NCBI RefSeq assembly: GCF_018785265.1
Contig: NZ_WQPK01000019.1
Location: forward strand, 1-64,000
Length of the DNA stretch: 64,000 nt
Source of the DNA: Collinsella aerofaciens
GTDB lineage: Bacteria > Actinomycetota > Coriobacteriia > Coriobacteriales > Coriobacteriaceae
Direction: 5' to 3'
The notes below the pieces were generated by a model. The model searched no databases. It was not told the DNA's origin and saw nothing but the letters and a program-made list of their open reading frames with translations. Shown in pieces: positions 2,918 through 14,014 of this stretch; the first letter of the stretch is position 1; each line of letters starts with the position of its first letter. The position numbers and the translations under genes are program-made.

Positions 2918-5900
2918 ATGGAAGTGCTAGTTGTTGGCAACACCGCATATGTTGACGATGACTTTTGCGCCAAGGCGTTCCCCGGGGACCACGTTAAGGT
3001 CGTCGCTGCCGCGGAAGCGCGCCACGATGAGTCGTCGCCTCATGCTTCGTGGAAAGAGCTACTCCAGCACTTGGATCAGGCCTACGAGTTCGACCGCGTG
3101 GTCTATCTATCTAATTACCTTACCCCGCATACCGATACCGTGGGCGATATCGAGCTGCTGCGCTCGGTCTTTCGTACGTGCGCGGGTCGCCGGGTCCAAC
3201 TGCTGTATGTAGCGGGGCCCGCGGGTGCCGAGGGTGCCGCCGATGCCGCGGGGCGAACGGGCAAGGGAATTATCGCCCGCGCAGCCAACGACCTGTGCCG
3301 CTACTACGCTGCTAGCGAGGGCGTTCAGACCAAGATCCTGCGCGTGCCGTTCCTGTATACCGCGTCCGCCGCGCTGGAGGACCCGTTTTTGGTGCCGCTG
3401 TTCGACGCGTGCTCAACTGGATCGGTCGCTCTGCAGGGCGCGCAGGATGCGGCGTTTCCCCTGCTGTGTGCCGAGGAGCTTGCGGTGTTGGTACGCCGTA
3501 TCTTCGACAGCTGGGATGGTAACTTTGAGATGCTCGACGTTGCCGATACCTTCCATCACACGTCAGGTGAAGTTGGCGACGCCCTCAAGGCACTGTTCCC
3601 CGGCCTTGCCGTTGCCTATGGCGATTCTGCCGGCTACGCCCTGCCCGTCAGCGGCGTCGTTCGCGTGCGTTATGGTTGGTTTCAGCGCTACGACCTGCTG
3701 CGCGATCTTTCGACCATTCAAGCGCGTTGGGATGCTGGCCGCGCAAAGAAGGTTAACCCCTTGCGCGCCGCCATCGACCGCATCCAGATGCGCGCGCTGC
3801 CTATTAAATGCCTGGAGACGGGCGTTGCCTGGGTCCTGTTCGAGGTGCTGGAGCATCTGTTCTCCCAATCGGCCCAGCTCAACGTGCTTGATTATCGCCT
3901 GCTCTACGTGGTGCTGATCGGCACGCTGTATGGCTTGGACTTTGGCCTGGTTGCGGCGCTGCTGGCGTCGGTGGGTTTGGCCGCGAGCTACTTTACTCAG
4001 TACGGCTATACCTTCCAGGGCCTGTTCTACGAGCCGTCCAACTGGCTGCCGTTTATTGCGTACTTTGTGGTGGGTGCCGTGTGCGGCTATGTGCAGCTAC
4101 GCAACAGCGAAGCCATTAGGGCGGAGCGCGATCAAAATGAGCTCGTTCGCAACCGCAATACGTTCCTTACGCAGCTCTACCACGACGCGATCGAGGACAA
4201 GCGCGCGTACAGGCGCCAGATCGTGGGTCGCCACGACAGCTTTGGCAAGATCTTTGCCGTGACGCAGGAGCTCGACGTGCTCAACCCACGCGACATCTAT
4301 CGCAAGTGCTGCGAGCTTCTGGGCGAGATTCTCGAGAACGATTTGGTGGCGATCTACCATGTTTCGGGCGGGGCATTTGCACGCCTGGTGGCAGCAAGTC
4401 CCGCGATTGCCGAAGATGCCGCACGCTCGCTCACGCTTGAGCAGCTTGCGCCTCTTTTGGGCGACGGGGGTCGTTCGAGCCTGTGGGTGAATCGCGAGCT
4501 GACGCCGGGGCTTCCCATGTTTGGATACACGATCGAGCGCGACGGGGCACCCGCCGTGTTGATTTTTGTGCGTAGTGCGGCCGAAAACCAAATGACCCTC
4601 TATTATCAAAACCTGTTCCGCATCTTGTGCGGCCTGGTCGAAAGTGCGCTGGGCCGTGCTTTTGACTATGAGGCGGTGGCGCAGGATAAACGCTGCGTTG
4701 ACGGTACTTGCGTGCTCAAGCAGGCTGCCTTTGGCCAAGAGCTCGCGGCGGAGCAAGCGCTGGCAGATAGCAAGATGGGGAGTTTTTTGCTCCTGCGCGT
4801 GGTACCGGGCGTGGAGCCTGTTGGCGAGCTGGTGGGCGCAATTGGGTCGGCAATCCGCGAGAGCGACGCGGCGGGCTTGGTCGACGGCGACGTACTCTAC
4901 CTGCTTATGCGTCAGGCAAAGGCGTGCGATCTGCCCATTATCCGCGAGCGCCTGAGCGCAAAGCATATTGCGGTGGAACCCGTCGACGGCGAGGACATCG
5001 TGGCGTTGTTGCAGCACATCTCTTACACCGGTGACGGTGAGGGGGGGTGCCGCTTGATCTCGCTTGTCGTTGCTGCCGTCTTGCTGCTGATTCATGCGTT
5101 GGTTTGCCTGATGCTGTGGACGCTCATGAAGCTGGGCCTGCTGCCGGTGCGCGGGCACATGCTGGCTGTGATAGTGCTGGTGCCGCTGTGGGGTCCGTTG
5201 CTGGTGGTTCTGCTATCGGTCTGCAGCGCGATGTTTGGCGAGGGGCTGAAAGAGTCTGCGCTGGAGTCGCTGCGCTTCAACGACGACCTGCATCGCAGTA
5301 TGCCGGTACCGAGTGGTGAGGACGATGCAGGCGTAGTGCCGCTCGAGGAGGCGCTCATCGTCAATGACCCGGCATACCGGCGCCGCCTAATGCTCTCCAT
5401 GCTCACCGAGGAGCCCGACGCTTACCTGGCGCAGCTGCAGGTGGCTAAGCTTAACGACGACGTTGAGGTGGCGCACTATGCCGCGACGGCGGTGGCGCAG
5501 ATCTCCAAGGAGTCCGACCTTAAACTGCAGCAGCTGGAGCGTGCCTTTAAGACGGACCCGAGCGCGCAAAACCTCAACGAATACTGCGATTTTCTTGGTG
5601 AATACTTGGGCTCGGGCTTGGCCGAGGGGCGCGTGGCTCAGATTCAGCGCCAACAGTACGCGCGCCTGCTTGCGCGTCGCTGCGAGCGCGAGGATACCCT
5701 TGAGCTGCGCATTCGATACGCGACGGCTCTGGCCGATGTCGGACAGATCGACGAGGCGCAGGCCGTGACCGACCAGCTGGTGCTCGACGTGCCCGACGAG
5801 CAGGAGGTTTGGATGCTTTGCCTGCGCCTGGCCGTGATGCGCCGCGACGGTGACGAAGTCCACCGTGTGATCGATGCGATTGACAAGCAACATGTGTATT

Positions 5901-5959
5901 TGAGCGCCGACAACCGCGAAAAGTTGGCGTTTTGGCGCGACGGGGATGAGGTCCGATGA
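2918..5959 (+). CDS. SDR-PelD-PelE triple fusion, c-di-GMP receptor of a Pel-like system
   Basis: A 1013-residue protein. Residues 1-270 look like an NAD-dependent epimerase/SDR domain (N-terminal MEVLVVGNTAY, later YYAASEG). Membrane segments span about 304-390 and a GAF domain about 444-575. A degenerate GGDEF (about 590-705) reads DGDVL at 656-660, with RESD at 647-650 at the exact spacing of the RxxD c-di-GMP inhibitory site. Two more membrane helices (about 712-775) and a TPR-like tail complete the order PelD then PelE. PelD is the c-di-GMP receptor of Pel polysaccharide synthesis and PelE its membrane partner. The SDR part may supply or modify a UDP-sugar, or may be structural. The start has GGGGAGGA upstream. 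The stop overlaps the next ATG (ATGA). Confidence 0.75.
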   Translation: MEVLVVGNTAYVDDDFCAKAFPGDHVKVVAAAEARHDESSPHASWKELLQHLDQAYEFDRVVYLSNYLTPHTDTVGDIELLRSVFRTCAGRRVQLLYVAGPAGAEGAADAAGRTGKGIIARAANDLCRYYAASEGVQTKILRVPFLYTASAALEDPFLVPLFDACSTGSVALQGAQDAAFPLLCAEELAVLVRRIFDSWDGNFEMLDVADTFHHTSGEVGDALKALFPGLAVAYGDSAGYALPVSGVVRVRYGWFQRYDLLRDLSTIQARWDAGRAKKVNPLRAAIDRIQMRALPIKCLETGVAWVLFEVLEHLFSQSAQLNVLDYRLLYVVLIGTLYGLDFGLVAALLASVGLAASYFTQYGYTFQGLFYEPSNWLPFIAYFVVGAVCGYVQLRNSEAIRAERDQNELVRNRNTFLTQLYHDAIEDKRAYRRQIVGRHDSFGKIFAVTQELDVLNPRDIYRKCCELLGEILENDLVAIYHVSGGAFARLVAASPAIAEDAARSLTLEQLAPLLGDGGRSSLWVNRELTPGLPMFGYTIERDGAPAVLIFVRSAAENQMTLYYQNLFRILCGLVESALGRAFDYEAVAQDKRCVDGTCVLKQAAFGQELAAEQALADSKMGSFLLLRVVPGVEPVGELVGAIGSAIRESDAAGLVDGDVLYLLMRQAKACDLPIIRERLSAKHIAVEPVDGEDIVALLQHISYTGDGEGGCRLISLVVAAVLLLIHALVCLMLWTLMKLGLLPVRGHMLAVIVLVPLWGPLLVVLLSVCSAMFGEGLKESALESLRFNDDLHRSMPVPSGEDDAGVVPLEEALIVNDPAYRRRLMLSMLTEEPDAYLAQLQVAKLNDDVEVAHYAATAVAQISKESDLKLQQLERAFKTDPSAQNLNEYCDFLGEYLGSGLAEGRVAQIQRQQYARLLARRCEREDTLELRIRYATALADVGQIDEAQAVTDQLVLDVPDEQEVWMLCLRLAVMRRDGDEVHRVIDAIDKQHVYLSADNREKLAFWRDGDEVR

Positions 5960-7836
5960 GCGTGGCACAACATATCCGCGACCGTGCAGGCCGCTTTCGT
6001 TGGATGGGGCTCCTCGTGGTGTGGGCGGTCTTTATTGCCATGGCCGCCGTGCTGCTAGTGGAGCGTGCCGGCGTGCAGTACAGTGCGGGCCAGCATAAGC
6101 TGGGGATGCTTGCCGCCAACGATGCGGTGCCGGCCTCCTCGGCAATCTTTGGCCAAAAGCCCACGTGCCTGGTCATTACCGATTCCGATCAAGCTGGCGT
6201 CGAGGACGTAAAGGAACAGTTCGACCAGATTTTGCTGGACATGAAGATCGCGCACCGCGACGTGGACCTTGCCCTGGATGGTGCGGATGCCATTCCCTCG
6301 CTGACCTCCTTCGATCGCGTGATTTTGCTCATGCCGTCGCTCGATGGGCTCGGTACGCACCTGAGCGACATTATGGGTTGGGTGAGTGCCGGCGGTTCTC
6401 TTATGCTCGCCATGCCGCCGGATAACTCGAGCTATCTGCAAGTGATTGCCTCCAAGCTTGGCATTGAATCGGCCGGATATGACTATGTAAAAGCCGAAAG
6501 CATTGTGCCGAGTGAGGACTTTATGCTGGGCGGGGGAGAGCGCTACGAGTTCTCGGATCCCTTCGATTCTTCACTTTCGGTTTCATTGCGCGAAACGGCG
6601 CACGTCTGGGCAAATACCGGTGACGCGGGCACACCGCTCATTTGGTCTAACGATTGCGGCAGTGGTCACACCGTGGCGTGCAACATTGGCATCTACGACA
6701 AGGTCATGCGTGGGTTCTATGCTTCGGCCATAAGCTTGCTGGGTGAAGCCACGGCCTATCCGGTCATCAACAGCGCCGTGTTCTATTTGGACGACTTTCC
6801 CAGCCCTGTGCCCTCGGGCGACGGCACCTACATCAAGCGCGACTACGGGCTTTCCGTCGCCGATTTTTATGCCAAGGTCTGGTGGCCCGATCTGCAAGAG
6901 CTCGCGCAAAAATACGGCATTCGCTATACCGGCGTGATGATCGAAAACTACGAGGACGCGGTCAACCAGACCGAGCCTGCGCGCCAGGCCGATACCACGC
7001 AGTTTCGCTACTTTGGCGGCATGCTGCTGCAGATGGGCGGAGAGCTGGGCTTTCACGGCTACAACCATCAGCCGCTGGCGCTCTGGGACACCGACTACGG
7101 TACGCTGTACGACTACAAGACGTGGAAGAACAAAGAGACGCTCGTCGCTTCGCTCAACGAACTTATCGCGTTTCAGGACGAGGTCCTGCCCAATGCTCAT
7201 GGCTCGGTTTACGTGCCGCCGTCGAATATCCTTTCGGCCCGCGCGCGCAAGCTTATCGGTACCGATGTTCCGCGCATTAAGACCATTGCCAGTACGTATT
7301 TTGAGGATGGCACCGACCTGCCGTACGTGCAGGAGTTTGGCGTGGCGAGCGATGGCATTGTGGAGCAGCCACGTATTGTTTCGGGCGGCATGGTCGACGA
7401 TTCCTATATGCGCCTGGCAGCCGTGTCCGAGCTCAACATGCACTACGTGAGCACTCACTTTATGCACCCGGACGACCTGCTCGATCCCGATCGCGGCGCC
7501 AAGGAGGGCTGGGAAGTCTACAAGGGCGGCCTGGTCGACTACCTGGACTGGCTTACCAAGTCTGCGCCCGACCTGCGCCGCCAGACGGCGTCGGAGTGCT
7601 CCGGTGCCATCCAGCGCTTTTCGTCGGTTACGGTGAGCGTGGATACCAGTGCGGATGCCTGGACGCTCAGCCTGGGCAATTTCCACGACGAGGCGTGGTT
7701 CATGTTCCGCGCCAATAATGGCGAGCCGGGTGCGGTGACGGGTGGCGAACTGACGCACCTTACGGGCAATCTGTATCTGCTCAAGGCAAATGATAAGACC
7801 CTGACGATCGAGCGCAAGGAGGGTGGCGACAGATGA
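5956..7836 (+). CDS. DUF2194 polysaccharide deacetylase (PelA-like)
   Basis: A 626-residue membrane-anchored protein with one N-terminal helix (about residues 16-37). A Rossmann/amidotransferase-like segment (about 70-200) is followed by a deacetylase-like domain. That domain has YLDDFPSP (D279, D280) and FHGYNH (H367, H371): an aspartate and an HxxxH pair, the metal-binding pattern of PelA-type deacetylases. It probably de-N-acetylates the polymer outside the membrane. No glycoside hydrolase domain like that of Pseudomonas PelA is evident here or in a neighbouring gene. Four-base overlaps with both neighbours indicate translational coupling. Confidence 0.75.
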   Translation: MSVAQHIRDRAGRFRWMGLLVVWAVFIAMAAVLLVERAGVQYSAGQHKLGMLAANDAVPASSAIFGQKPTCLVITDSDQAGVEDVKEQFDQILLDMKIAHRDVDLALDGADAIPSLTSFDRVILLMPSLDGLGTHLSDIMGWVSAGGSLMLAMPPDNSSYLQVIASKLGIESAGYDYVKAESIVPSEDFMLGGGERYEFSDPFDSSLSVSLRETAHVWANTGDAGTPLIWSNDCGSGHTVACNIGIYDKVMRGFYASAISLLGEATAYPVINSAVFYLDDFPSPVPSGDGTYIKRDYGLSVADFYAKVWWPDLQELAQKYGIRYTGVMIENYEDAVNQTEPARQADTTQFRYFGGMLLQMGGELGFHGYNHQPLALWDTDYGTLYDYKTWKNKETLVASLNELIAFQDEVLPNAHGSVYVPPSNILSARARKLIGTDVPRIKTIASTYFEDGTDLPYVQEFGVASDGIVEQPRIVSGGMVDDSYMRLAAVSELNMHYVSTHFMHPDDLLDPDRGAKEGWEVYKGGLVDYLDWLTKSAPDLRRQTASECSGAIQRFSSVTVSVDTSADAWTLSLGNFHDEAWFMFRANNGEPGAVTGGELTHLTGNLYLLKANDKTLTIERKEGGDR

Positions 7837-9263: not shown

Positions 9264-10808
9264 GTGGCCGGAATTGGTTTTGAGCTCAAGCGCCTGTTTA
9301 GGCGCAAAGGCCTGTTTGCCACGATGCGCGCTTACGGCTACGCCGGCATTGTGTGCACGGGCCCCATGCTGTTGGGCGTGCTACTCCAGGTGGGTATCTT
9401 GGTGCTGTGCGGTCTGTGGGGCGTGGGGCGCGCCAACCAGGACCTGCTGGTGTGCATGGTGACCTATACGCTGCTGGCGTCGCTCACGCTCACGAGCTTT
9501 TTCTCTATGCCGGTCACGCGTTTTTTGGCCGATATGCTCTTTGCCGAGCGCGAGGATGAGATCCTACCTTCGTTTTGGGGCTCCAACGCCATCATGCTCG
9601 TTGCGGGCACGGTGCTCTACGGCGTCTTTTTGCTGTTCTCGGGCGCCACGCTGCTGCAGGGGCTGCTGTGCCTGTGGCTGTTCAACATTATGATCGTCAA
9701 CTGGAACGGCATGAGTTACCTCACGGCCATCAAGGATTACCGCGGCGTCCTGTGCAGCTTTGCGGCTGCCATTGGCGTGGCGTGCCTGTGCGCCCTGGCC
9801 GCGCTGGCGCTGGGACTGCCGCCGGTCGAGGGCCTGTTGGCGTCAATTGCTCTGGGCTACGGCGTCATGCTCGCCTGGGACGTGGTGCTGCTGTACCGGT
9901 ATTTTCCTCAGAGCGACCGCAGCCCCTGGCCCTTTTTGCGGTGGCTCGATCAGTTTATGCCGCTGGCGCTCACGGGTCTGTTAACCAATCTGGGACTCTT
10001 TGCGCACCTGGTGATTATTTGGACCGGTCCCATTGGCGTGCAGGTCAAGGGCTTCTTTTATGGTGCGCCCTACTACGATGTGCCGGCGCTCATCGCGTTT
10101 TTGACCATCCTGGTCACGACCGTCAACTTTGTGGTCTCGGTCGAGGTCAACTTCTATCCGCGCTACCGCGACTACTACAGCCTGTTCAACGACGGCGGCG
10201 TGGTGGGCGACATTGTGGTGGCCGAGGAGGAGATGCTCTCCACGCTCAACAGCGAACTGCGCTTTTGCGCGCTCAAGCAGCTGTTTGTGACCGCTGCGGT
10301 CATTTCGCTCGAGACCACGGTGCTCTCGGCCCTGCCGCTGGGCTTTAACAACCTTATGCACGGGTATTTTCGCACGCTGTGCGTGGGCTATGGCTTGTAT
10401 GCCGTGGGCAATACGGTGATGCTCATCTTGCTGTACTTTACCGACTACAAGGGAGCCGTGCTGGCTTCGGGCCTGTTTGGCGGTGTGGCCGGGCTGGCGA
10501 CTGCCGTGTCGTTGCTTTTGCCGCAGCAGTTTTACGGCTTTGGCTTTTTGTTGGGTGCGGCGGTGTTTTTTATCGTGGCGCTGCTGCGGCTCGATACCTA
10601 TACCGCCAACTTGCCGTATCGTATCCTGAGCCAGCAGCCTATTGTGGCGACCGACAAATCGGGCTGGTTTACCGAACTTGGCCGGGTGCTCGACCGTGTT
10701 GAGCAATGCTACGAGGACAAGCGCGCGGGCGGTGAGCCGCGCAGTGCGTTTGAACGTATGGTGGTTCGCCTGTACCAAAAACATTGGGGAGGTTCTGATG
10801 ATCGATAA
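9264..10808 (+). CDS. pelG: PelG-like polysaccharide transporter
   Basis: A 514-residue polytopic membrane protein with about twelve hydrophobic segments. Its N-terminus (MAGIGFELKRLF) is typical of PelG, the MOP/Wzx-like flippase-type transporter of Pel systems. The GTG start has GGGGGAG just upstream. The C-terminus is cytoplasmic and hydrophilic. It would export the chain made by PelF. The last 11 bases overlap the start of the CotH gene. Confidence 0.85.
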   Translation: MAGIGFELKRLFRRKGLFATMRAYGYAGIVCTGPMLLGVLLQVGILVLCGLWGVGRANQDLLVCMVTYTLLASLTLTSFFSMPVTRFLADMLFAEREDEILPSFWGSNAIMLVAGTVLYGVFLLFSGATLLQGLLCLWLFNIMIVNWNGMSYLTAIKDYRGVLCSFAAAIGVACLCALAALALGLPPVEGLLASIALGYGVMLAWDVVLLYRYFPQSDRSPWPFLRWLDQFMPLALTGLLTNLGLFAHLVIIWTGPIGVQVKGFFYGAPYYDVPALIAFLTILVTTVNFVVSVEVNFYPRYRDYYSLFNDGGVVGDIVVAEEEMLSTLNSELRFCALKQLFVTAAVISLETTVLSALPLGFNNLMHGYFRTLCVGYGLYAVGNTVMLILLYFTDYKGAVLASGLFGGVAGLATAVSLLLPQQFYGFGFLLGAAVFFIVALLRLDTYTANLPYRILSQQPIVATDKSGWFTELGRVLDRVEQCYEDKRAGGEPRSAFERMVVRLYQKHWGGSDDR

Positions 10809-12567
10809 GTTGATGTCTCGCCGCTGCCTGATCGAGGCGGCTGCCGGCGCGCTGTTGCTTTCGGGCTGCTCGTCTCAGGACGAATCCTCGACTAAAAAGG
10901 TCAAAAAGCAGGGCAAGATTAAAAAGGCCGAGGCCTCCGACCAGTCCAAGCACCTGCGCGATAAGGACGAGCTGTACGAGGTCTACGACGACTCGGGCAT
11001 TGTGACCATGTACCTGACGGTCTCGCGCGGTAACAGCTCCGAGAACACCGATCATAGCTGGGCCGAGATCAATACGTACTCGGTGTATGACTACGCCGAC
11101 ATGGGCGTGACGCGCTATCAGGTAATGGGGCTTTTGCAGGCGGGCGACGAAGACGGCCCGGTGGCCGGTGAGGTTGGCTATGGCGAGGAAGCGCCCAATG
11201 CTACCGTGCAGGTGTGTGGCCAGACGTCGAGCATGAACTCGCAAAAGAATTACAAGGTTGAGCTCAAAAAGGGCAAGGGTAGCTGGCGCCAACAGCGCGC
11301 GATTGCGCTCAACAAGCACATGGGCGAGGGTATGCGTTTTCGCAACAAGATGGCCTACGACCTTATCCGCGGGATTCCCCAGATGATGGGCCTGCGCACG
11401 CAGTTTGTGCATCTGTGGGTGTGCGACCAGACCGAAAAGTCCAACGACACCTTTGAGGACTACGGCCTGTTTACGCAGGTTGAACAGCTCAACAAGACGG
11501 CGCTTAAGGCACATGGCCTGGATAAGAGCGGGCATCTGTACAAGGTGAACAGCTTTGATTTCCATCGCTACGAGGATACCATTAAGCTTGCTGACGACCC
11601 CGACTACAACCAGGCAAGCTTTGAGGGCATGCTCGAGATTAAGGGCGATTCGGACCACACCAAGCTCATCGAGATGCTCGATGCGCTCAACGACGAATCG
11701 CAAAAGATCGATGACGTGCTCGACACCTACTTTGATACCGAGAATCTGGTCTATTGGTTGGCGTTTCAGATCCTGACGGGCAACTGCGATACGCAGAACC
11801 GCAACTGCTATCTGTACAGCCCGCTTAACTCCAAGGTCTGGTACATCCTGGATTGGGATAACGACGGCATGCTGCGTAAGCTTGAGCTGAGCCTGACGGG
11901 GTTCTCGGATTATGCGAGCTGGGAGCGCGGCGTAAGCAACTACTGGGGCAACGTGCTATTCAATCGTGCGCTGCGCAGCAAGGCGTTCCGCGGTGAGCTC
12001 GATCGCGCCGTCAAGGACCTGCGCTCGTATATGACCGAGGCACGCCTGACCAAGATGATCAAGCACTACCGCGAGGTGACTGAATCCCTGGTCTTTGCTT
12101 CGCCCGATATCGACAATCTGCCTGTCACCAAGGACCAATACGAGCAGATCGCCGCGTCGATTCCCTCCGAGATCGAGGAGAACTACAAGAGCTTTCGCGA
12201 GAGTTTTAAAAAGCCCATGCCGTTCTACATCGGCGTGCCGCAGATCGATAACGGTAAGCTGCGCATTAACTGGGATGCGTCCTACGACTTTGAGGCGCGC
12301 GACATTCGCTACACCGTAGAGCTTGCGCGCGACTATGCCATAAGCGACGTGTTCTTTAAGGCCGAGGACGTGCTGCTTCCCGAGGTGACCTGCGATGCGC
12401 CCGATGCCGGCCAGTATTTTGTGCGCGTGCGTGCCGCCAACTCCGACGGCTTTACGCAAGATGCGTTTGACTACTATGTGACTGACGACGGTAAGCACTA
12501 CGGCATGAAGTGTTTTTACGTGCAAGACGGCGGTAAGGTCGTGGAGGACACGTATGAGGAGGGCTAG
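10798..12567 (+). CDS. CotH kinase-family lipoprotein
   Basis: A 589-residue secreted lipoprotein. Residues 1-24 form a signal peptide ending in the lipobox LLSGC (C24). A CotH-like domain follows, with ILDWDNDG (D352, D354, D356) corresponding to the metal-binding aspartates of CotH kinases. The C-terminal 100 residues look like a fibronectin-III or Ig-like domain. The ATG at 10798, seven bases after GGGGAGG, is preferred over an upstream in-frame start, because only this start gives a proper signal peptide. CotH proteins are atypical extracytoplasmic kinases, first known from Bacillus spore coats. Linkage to pel genes suggests a role in surface attachment or modification of the polymer; this is inference. 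Confidence 0.8.
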   Translation: MIDKLMSRRCLIEAAAGALLLSGCSSQDESSTKKVKKQGKIKKAEASDQSKHLRDKDELYEVYDDSGIVTMYLTVSRGNSSENTDHSWAEINTYSVYDYADMGVTRYQVMGLLQAGDEDGPVAGEVGYGEEAPNATVQVCGQTSSMNSQKNYKVELKKGKGSWRQQRAIALNKHMGEGMRFRNKMAYDLIRGIPQMMGLRTQFVHLWVCDQTEKSNDTFEDYGLFTQVEQLNKTALKAHGLDKSGHLYKVNSFDFHRYEDTIKLADDPDYNQASFEGMLEIKGDSDHTKLIEMLDALNDESQKIDDVLDTYFDTENLVYWLAFQILTGNCDTQNRNCYLYSPLNSKVWYILDWDNDGMLRKLELSLTGFSDYASWERGVSNYWGNVLFNRALRSKAFRGELDRAVKDLRSYMTEARLTKMIKHYREVTESLVFASPDIDNLPVTKDQYEQIAASIPSEIEENYKSFRESFKKPMPFYIGVPQIDNGKLRINWDASYDFEARDIRYTVELARDYAISDVFFKAEDVLLPEVTCDAPDAGQYFVRVRAANSDGFTQDAFDYYVTDDGKHYGMKCFYVQDGGKVVEDTYEEG

Positions 12568-13345
12568 CGCGCTGCTTGAGCGCTTGGCGGCCCCGCCTGT
12601 GCGTGCCACGCAGGAGCGTTACCGCCATGAGCTCAAATATCTCATTAACGAGGGCGAGCACGCCGCGCTTGCCTGTCGCATGGCGCCGGTGTTTAAGCTG
12701 GACAAGCATGCGCGGGCGGGCGGTTACACTATTCGCAGCCTGTATTTTGATGACTACCGAAACTCGGCCTACGAGGAAAAAGACGCCGGCATTCTCATGC
12801 GCAAAAAGTATCGCGTGCGCATCTATAACGGCAGCGACAAGGTGATTAAGCTTGAGCGCAAAAAGAAGTACGGCAGCTGGATCTACAAGGAGGACGCGCC
12901 GCTTACGCGCGGTGAGTTTGAGCAGATTCTGGCTGGCGACTACGACTTTTTGCTGAGGAGCCCTTATCCGCTCTGTCGCGAGTTCTACATCGAGTGCATC
13001 TGCAACATGATGCGCCCGCGGACCATCGTGGACTACGAGCGCGAGCCGTGAGTGATGGATGAGGGCACCGTGCGCATTACGTTTGACATGAACGTGCGTG
13101 CCGCGGTGGGAAGCTTCGATATCTTTGACGCGACGCTGCCCGCGCTGCCGGTCCTGGAGCCCGGCAAGCTGGTGATGGAGGTCAAGTTTACGGAGTTTTG
13201 CCCGCAGCTGGTGCGCGATATTGTGCCGCCGGGAGCGGCCGAGCTTACGGCGGTCTCCAAGTACTGTCTGTGTTACGAAAAGACCGCCTACCTGCGCGGA
13301 TTTAATTACTGGGAATCGGATTTTGAGAACCGAGGGGATATTTAG
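12554..13345 (+). pseudogene. VTC-domain (polyphosphate polymerase-like) gene interrupted by in-frame TGA
   Basis: Two halves of one VTC domain lie in the same frame, separated only by a TGA at 13049-13051. The 5' half (12554-13051, 165 residues) carries RHELKYLI, IRSLYFDDYRN, RKKYRVRIY and KLERKKKYG, the basic tunnel strands of VTC4-like polymerases. The 3' half (from GTG 13052 or ATG 13055) carries VRITFD, LVMEVKF and KYCLCYEK. In this family the region reads continuously. It may be a nonsense mutation, read-through, or a split gene restarted at the adjacent GTG/ATG. It overlaps the cotH end by 14 bases. VTC proteins here are usually small cytoplasmic partners of CotH and DUF4956. Confidence 0.75.
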
Positions 13346-13348
13346 ACC

Positions 13349-14014
13349 ATGAGCACCAGGGACTTTTTTAAGAACTCCGTCTTGGAGGCGTTTGGCCAGG
13401 TCGACCCTGCCAAGATTGGCCTTTCGCTGCTCGTGGCGCTCGCCATGGGCATCCTGATCTATTGCGTGTACAAGCGCTTTTTTACCGGCGTGGTGTATTC
13501 GCGCAGCTTTGCCGTGACGCTTGTGGGCATGTGCGTGCTCACCTGCATGGTCACGCTCGCGATTTCGACCAACGTGGTCATCTCGCTCGGTATGGTCGGT
13601 GCTCTGTCAATCGTCCGCTATCGTACGGCGGTTAAGGACCCGCTCGACCTGCTGTATCTTTTTTGGGCCATTACCACAGGCATTACGGCAGGCGCCGGCA
13701 TGTACGCGCTCGTGGGGCTTACGGCAGTGGTGATTGTGGTGATGATTGCCGGCTTTGCGAGCCGCCAGGACAAGGCGCGCGTGTACATGATGGTCATCCA
13801 CTACACGGGCCAGACTACTGGCGACGATATCGTGCGCGCATTTGGGCGCACCAAGTTTACGGTGAAGTCCAAGACCATGCGCGGTGACAAGGTGGAGATG
13901 GCCGCCGAGGTGTTCTCGGACGGTGTAGATATGCCCTATGCTGACGCCATTCGCGCGCTCGACGGCGTGGAAGACCTAACGTTGATCCAATACAACGGCG
14001 AATATCACGGGTAG
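13349..14014 (+). CDS. DUF4956 membrane protein
   Basis: A 221-residue protein with four or so hydrophobic helices in the first 140 residues, including the conserved LGMVGALSIVRYRTAVKDP segment, then a soluble C-terminal domain of about 75 residues. This is the DUF4956 family, whose biochemical function is unknown; it commonly accompanies VTC-domain and CotH genes. It starts three bases after the stop of the VTC gene, with GAGGGGA upstream, and closes the Pel-like operon. A hairpin at 14064-14087 without a T tract follows. Confidence 0.8.
   Translation: MSTRDFFKNSVLEAFGQVDPAKIGLSLLVALAMGILIYCVYKRFFTGVVYSRSFAVTLVGMCVLTCMVTLAISTNVVISLGMVGALSIVRYRTAVKDPLDLLYLFWAITTGITAGAGMYALVGLTAVVIVVMIAGFASRQDKARVYMMVIHYTGQTTGDDIVRAFGRTKFTVKSKTMRGDKVEMAAEVFSDGVDMPYADAIRALDGVEDLTLIQYNGEYHG

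Follow-up and report, generated by a model that had tools for sequence, protein, structure and literature searches.

Does the open reading frame at positions 2918 to 5959 of a Collinsella aerofaciens contig (NZ_WQPK01000019.1, assembly GCF_018785265.1; the window analysed here is its first 64,000 nucleotides) encode a new kind of Pel protein, in which an SDR-like domain, PelD and PelE are fused, as a sequence-only reading had proposed? We think it very probable that it does not, and that the locus is a conventional pel operon with an SDR-extended, probably c-di-GMP-binding PelD and a separate, overlapping pelE, whose frames are joined in this genome by one extra G that turns a run of six (G6) into one of seven (G7). 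What is tempting to announce as a new fusion protein is corrected to a one-base event.

The frame itself is real as written, a single + strand open reading frame of 1013 residues, and it appears to contain all the domains that had been named in it (SDR, membrane helices, GAF, degenerate GGDEF, further helices and TPRs). Its features are as follows.

2918 to 5047, + strand: pelD portion, residues 1-710, delimited by SDR and DUF4118 matches, the secondary structure of the model and alignment with separate PelD proteins.
4856 to 4867, + strand: I-site RESD, residues 647-650, of which R647 and D650 are invariant in PelD homologues and equivalent to the Bacillus cereus ligand residues R363 and D366.
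4883 to 4897, + strand: degenerate GGDEF motif DGDVL, residues 656-660, varying among homologues.
4949 to 4951, + strand: third ligand residue, R678, invariant and equivalent to B. cereus R395.
5041 to 5047, + strand: G-run of seven bases, against six in the closest relatives and eight in locus L032, resembling with its flanks a ribosome-binding site for pelE.
5054 to 5959, + strand: pelE, with a TTG start, its 301-residue product having two N-terminal membrane helices and TPRs; separate in all relatives examined.

Within the pelD portion, a degenerate SDR domain (residues 1 to ~279) is followed by predicted membrane helices (~293-390), a coiled coil, a putative GAF domain (~457-592) and a putative degenerate GGDEF domain (~600-704). 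The profile searches that had been suggested bore out the SDR part (E 9e-11) but not the Pel parts, as no PelD or PelE model of Pfam and NCBIfam matched the frame. Searched on the full frame, a DUF4118-like membrane block (residues 303-397) and TPR_19 (residues 923-968) scored slightly below the Pfam cut-offs, and TPR_19 rose above its own when pelE was searched alone. GAF was matched weakly in one PelD homologue, and matches to diguanylate cyclase profiles were also weak (best E 0.011). The predicted identity of PelD is thus based on synteny, domain order, conserved ligand residues and this weak GGDEF profile match, and that of PelE on its N-terminal membrane helices and TPRs, encoded directly 3' of pelD; the order of PelD followed by PelE, as first read, agrees with operon synteny and with the separate genes of relatives. 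The predicted model of PelD had a mean pLDDT of 78, and a single-sequence fold of the whole frame (mean pLDDT 44) was set aside. An alignment that combined PelD with PelE rows was left out, because near-identical PelE rows scored low identities in it and it was judged misaligned. No relative of the GAF-GGDEF part turned up in a plasmid collection.

What joins the two genes is the G-run. In relatives with six Gs, pelD ends in GDGEGGAA, its TGA stop overlaps the TTG start of pelE (TTGA), and GAGGGGGG lies just before. Setting the window DNA to six Gs gives a 712-residue PelD with the same ending, plus a PelE of 301 residues from the TTG at 5054. When run lengths from five to nine were tried, only seven joined the frames; with eight, PelD runs on out of frame to a length of 800 residues. 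The most similar junction sequence (L040, genome G002) is 99.7% identical and has six Gs, L032 (genome G062) has eight, and other relatives read GGGGGA or GGGAGG; in an alignment of the 11.2-kb operon from nine genomes, the G-run is the sole coding site with frame-changing indels.

Wider comparisons gave the same picture. Across 60 relatives searched, the frame splits at residue ~712, with pelE starting in another frame; pelE is separate at all the other pelD loci that were examined among 398 Coriobacteriia genomes; and among 396 Actinomycetota genomes, strong PelE matches are frames of about 300 residues, one long frame excepted. The joined frame is absent from every other locus examined, in Collinsella, in other Coriobacteriia and in one Faecalibacterium, and the available portions of PMC7112168, its companion and PMC12345266 make no mention of a PelD-PelE fusion. 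Since the other loci keep pelD and pelE separate, the comparison of these sequences identifies the joined frame as a one-genome, one-base event, not a conserved architecture. The sequence-only reading had itself set beforehand that a frameshift with separate genes in relatives should count against its triple fusion, and because this is what we find, the frames being joined here by one G, that claim fails its own test.

Some loci had looked like further joins and were rejected. Genomes G017 and G303, selected by frame length, have a TAG and a TGA, respectively, between the two genes. In genome G441, an 825-residue frame covers PelE, and pelD lies in a different frame that ends before the ATG of pelE.

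How the seventh G arose is a matter on which our weights are judgements, not calculations, and the run at 5041-5047 is known from the assembly sequence alone. We favour a recent slippage mutation as the probable origin. A sequencing or assembly error, in a strain that really has separate genes, appears to us somewhat unlikely: the site is a homopolymer, and the same assembly has another 1-bp difference in a cyclase gene, yet the operon holds no other frame-changing indel, and an independent assembly shows G8 at the same site. Very improbable, in our view, is a stable and selected PelD-PelE fusion protein, which would have to be reconciled with its presence in one genome only, its dependence on one homopolymer base and the G6 of the nearest sequence; on its side are the open frame, a compatible topology, the P. 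aeruginosa complex of PelD, PelE and PelG (reviewed in PMC8461298) and the purifying selection under which the pel genes remain. The joined protein may work, since the two helices of PelE would put both of its ends, towards the GGDEF domain and the TPRs, in the cytoplasm.

Slippage could also serve a function, and we counted as a subset of it the idea that the run switches PelD/PelE among three states, separate at G6, joined at G7 and tail-extended at G8, by which Pel biofilm production would vary in phase. In favour of such a switch, the run has three different lengths in close relatives, at this site only, and the homopolymer frameshifts of mycobacteria escape NucS repair and can act as reversible switches (PMC10159617, PMC11551767). 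Moreover, neither known mismatch-repair route was detected in this genome, as MutS_V and NucS_C had no match in the whole of it, with both models found in control genomes. Nevertheless, one genome per species was sampled, the ribosome-binding site accounts for the G-run, and in most relatives the run is interrupted or G6; we hold a functional switch to be unlikely. Such switching, if it occurs, would give gut actinobacteria a simple route to phase variation of their biofilm.

The seventh G may mark a further stage of degeneration, or be harmless. Substitution patterns indicate purifying selection on the pel genes, the dN/dS of 0.31 between the pelE of the window and that of L031 being above most pairs. 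The VTC gene of the cluster is split in this genome by an in-frame TGA at 13049-13051, where eight relatives have TGG. In genome G002, pelD (L037/L040) is broken at two contig ends that share 8 bp, beyond each of which lie 77 bp of other sequence, and a T6 to T5 change lies further on; the 8-bp overlap of the contig ends suggests an insertion element.

Downstream of pelE, the genes of the cluster are the following.

5956 to 7836, + strand: pelA_DA, a deacetylase-type PelA with DUF2194 (PF09960, E 2e-172), named by synteny with PMC7112168.
7833 to 9260, + strand: pelF glycosyltransferase (NF038011, E 4e-95, above cut-off).
9264 to 10808, + strand: pelG exporter (PF16933, E 4e-137).
10798 to 12567, + strand: CotH-type kinase, secreted or a lipoprotein, 589 residues (PF08757, E 5e-64), its start set by comparison with L032.
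12554 to 13345, + strand: the interrupted VTC gene, of polyphosphate polymerase type (PF09359 on both halves).
13349 to 14014, + strand: DUF4956 membrane protein (PF16316, E 2e-12), last gene of the cluster.

With pelF, pelG and a deacetylase-only pelA in the order D-E-A-F-G, the locus has what defines a Gram-positive pel operon, and its gene content and order classify it as a conventional pelDEA_DAFG operon with CotH, VTC and DUF4956, the second of the accessory sets of Whitfield et al. 2020 (PMC7112168), who place these genes downstream. The claim of a polysaccharide operon in a coriobacterial genome therefore stands, the profiles PF09960, NF038011 and PF16933 occurring in order. A sigma-70 consensus scan reported no promoter-like site upstream of pelD. 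At 2855-2885 lies the motif TTGACAGCGTAAAATACGCATGTTTGAC, with an inverted repeat GCGTA-TACGC, which is largely kept in Collinsella relatives and is possibly a promoter or an operator. Directly upstream of the operon, at 700-2621, an ATPase and a small partner match the PADLOC candidate defence pair PDC-M12A and PDC-M12B.

The added N-terminal domain has the fold that had been read into it, in degenerate form. Over residues 1-264, a profile of PelD homologues matched epimerases and dehydrogenases of the SDR family (best E 9e-11), and the predicted model of PelD aligned over residues 1 to ~279 with UDP-sugar epimerases (Z about 20-21, rmsd about 3.0-3.3 Å); a structure search with the whole model listed SDR chains alone. 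Active extended SDRs of the UDP-glucose 4-epimerase type have motifs that this domain lacks, with VGNTAYVDD at the glycine motif and GIIARAAND in place of YGxxK. Because the glycine-rich and YxxxK motifs are missing, the domain is probably a non-catalytic scaffold; PMC12345266 likewise gives the role of the PelD SDR domain as unknown. An SDR-extended PelD in actinobacteria is not new, as Whitfield et al. 2020 (PMC7112168) already describe an N-terminal SDR with altered active-site residues on the PelD of streptococci, clostridia and actinobacteria. In two other Coriobacteriia, G349 (L085) and G313 (L086/L097), PelD is divided between two frames, the SDR in one and the membrane-GAF-GGDEF part in the other, through an in-frame TGA and a frameshift, respectively; these are possibly pseudogenes, assembly errors or a real separation.

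The I-site, in turn, is intact. R647-E-S-D650 precedes D656-G-D-V-L660 by five residues, which is the canonical spacing of I-site and GGDEF motif, as had been noticed from the letters. R647, D650, G653 and R678 are invariant in PelD homologues of identity as low as about 20%, and residues 656-660 vary, which upholds the view of an intact I-site beside a dead GGDEF. The best PDB matches of the C-terminal profile were diguanylate cyclases, with RxxD aligned, although weakly (E 0.011). By alignment, R647, D650 and R678 correspond to R363, D366 and R395 of the B. cereus PelD, on which both c-di-GMP binding (KD 103 nM) and biofilm depend there. Since the ligand residues are invariant and the GGDEF motif is not, and since the B. 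cereus equivalents are proven, the Collinsella PelD is likely to bind c-di-GMP without cyclase activity.

Enzymes of c-di-GMP, the absence of which was to count against the first reading, are encoded in the genome. GGDEF genes with an intact motif lie on contigs C24 (a 391-residue frame) and C32 (518 residues), and a gene on C7 combines a degenerate GGDEF (CDKF) with an HD_5 domain. In comparison with G002 and G013, a diguanylate cyclase gene on C32 (L066, G000:C32:29387-29832) is frameshifted by a 1-bp indel just ahead of the GGDEF motif, and the EAL gene (L065, G000:C32:88853-89059) is a 194-codon remnant of what in other Collinsella is a full GGDEF-EAL gene of 906-974 codons. The remnant is common to five genomes (this one, G030, G032, G009 and G013), which have no other EAL match. 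With one cyclase gene frameshifted and the EAL gene a remnant, c-di-GMP signalling in this genome may be impaired. GGDEF matches occur in all 13 pel-positive Collinsella genomes and in 16 of the 32 pel-negative ones (Fisher p 0.0014, phylogeny not corrected). The 64-kb window was found to contain no c-di-GMP riboswitch, and only two tRNAs.

A working model may be drawn by analogy with P. aeruginosa and B. cereus, where c-di-GMP binding to PelD activates the PelDEFG membrane complex (PMC8461298). The diguanylate cyclases of the cell would make c-di-GMP, which would bind PelD at R647, D650 and R678; PelD so loaded would activate the PelD-E-F-G membrane synthase, with the SDR domain serving as a non-catalytic scaffold; and the synthase would make and export a GalNAc-rich Pel polymer, to be deacetylated by PelA_DA. 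The literature searched yielded no paper on Collinsella and Pel polysaccharide, and this common gut genus is shown here to have a pel operon whose c-di-GMP site is intact.

Comparison with known systems places the locus among its kin. Bacillus cereus ATCC 10987 shares the core pelDEA_DAFG operon and the corresponding c-di-GMP ligand residues, but its PelD has no SDR domain and its locus no CotH/VTC/DUF4956 set. The class IV PelD of Streptococcus intermedius (PMC12345266) has a degenerate N-terminal SDR, membrane helices and GAF, with CotH and other phosphate-type accessory genes, as in Collinsella; the streptococcal protein has no GGDEF domain, whereas the Collinsella PelD retains one with an invariant I-site. 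In Faecalibacterium sp. I4-3-84, the SDR-PelD is 41% identical and the gene order is the same through DUF4956, but pelE overlaps pelD as a gene of its own and VTC is intact, unlike in the window. The SDR-extended PelD systems of PMC7112168 have the same degenerate SDR, membrane helices, GAF and degenerate GGDEF, the same pelDEA_DAFG order and the same CotH, polyphosphate polymerase and DUF4956 genes; from these the locus differs only in the joined pelD-pelE frame, by one base in this genome.
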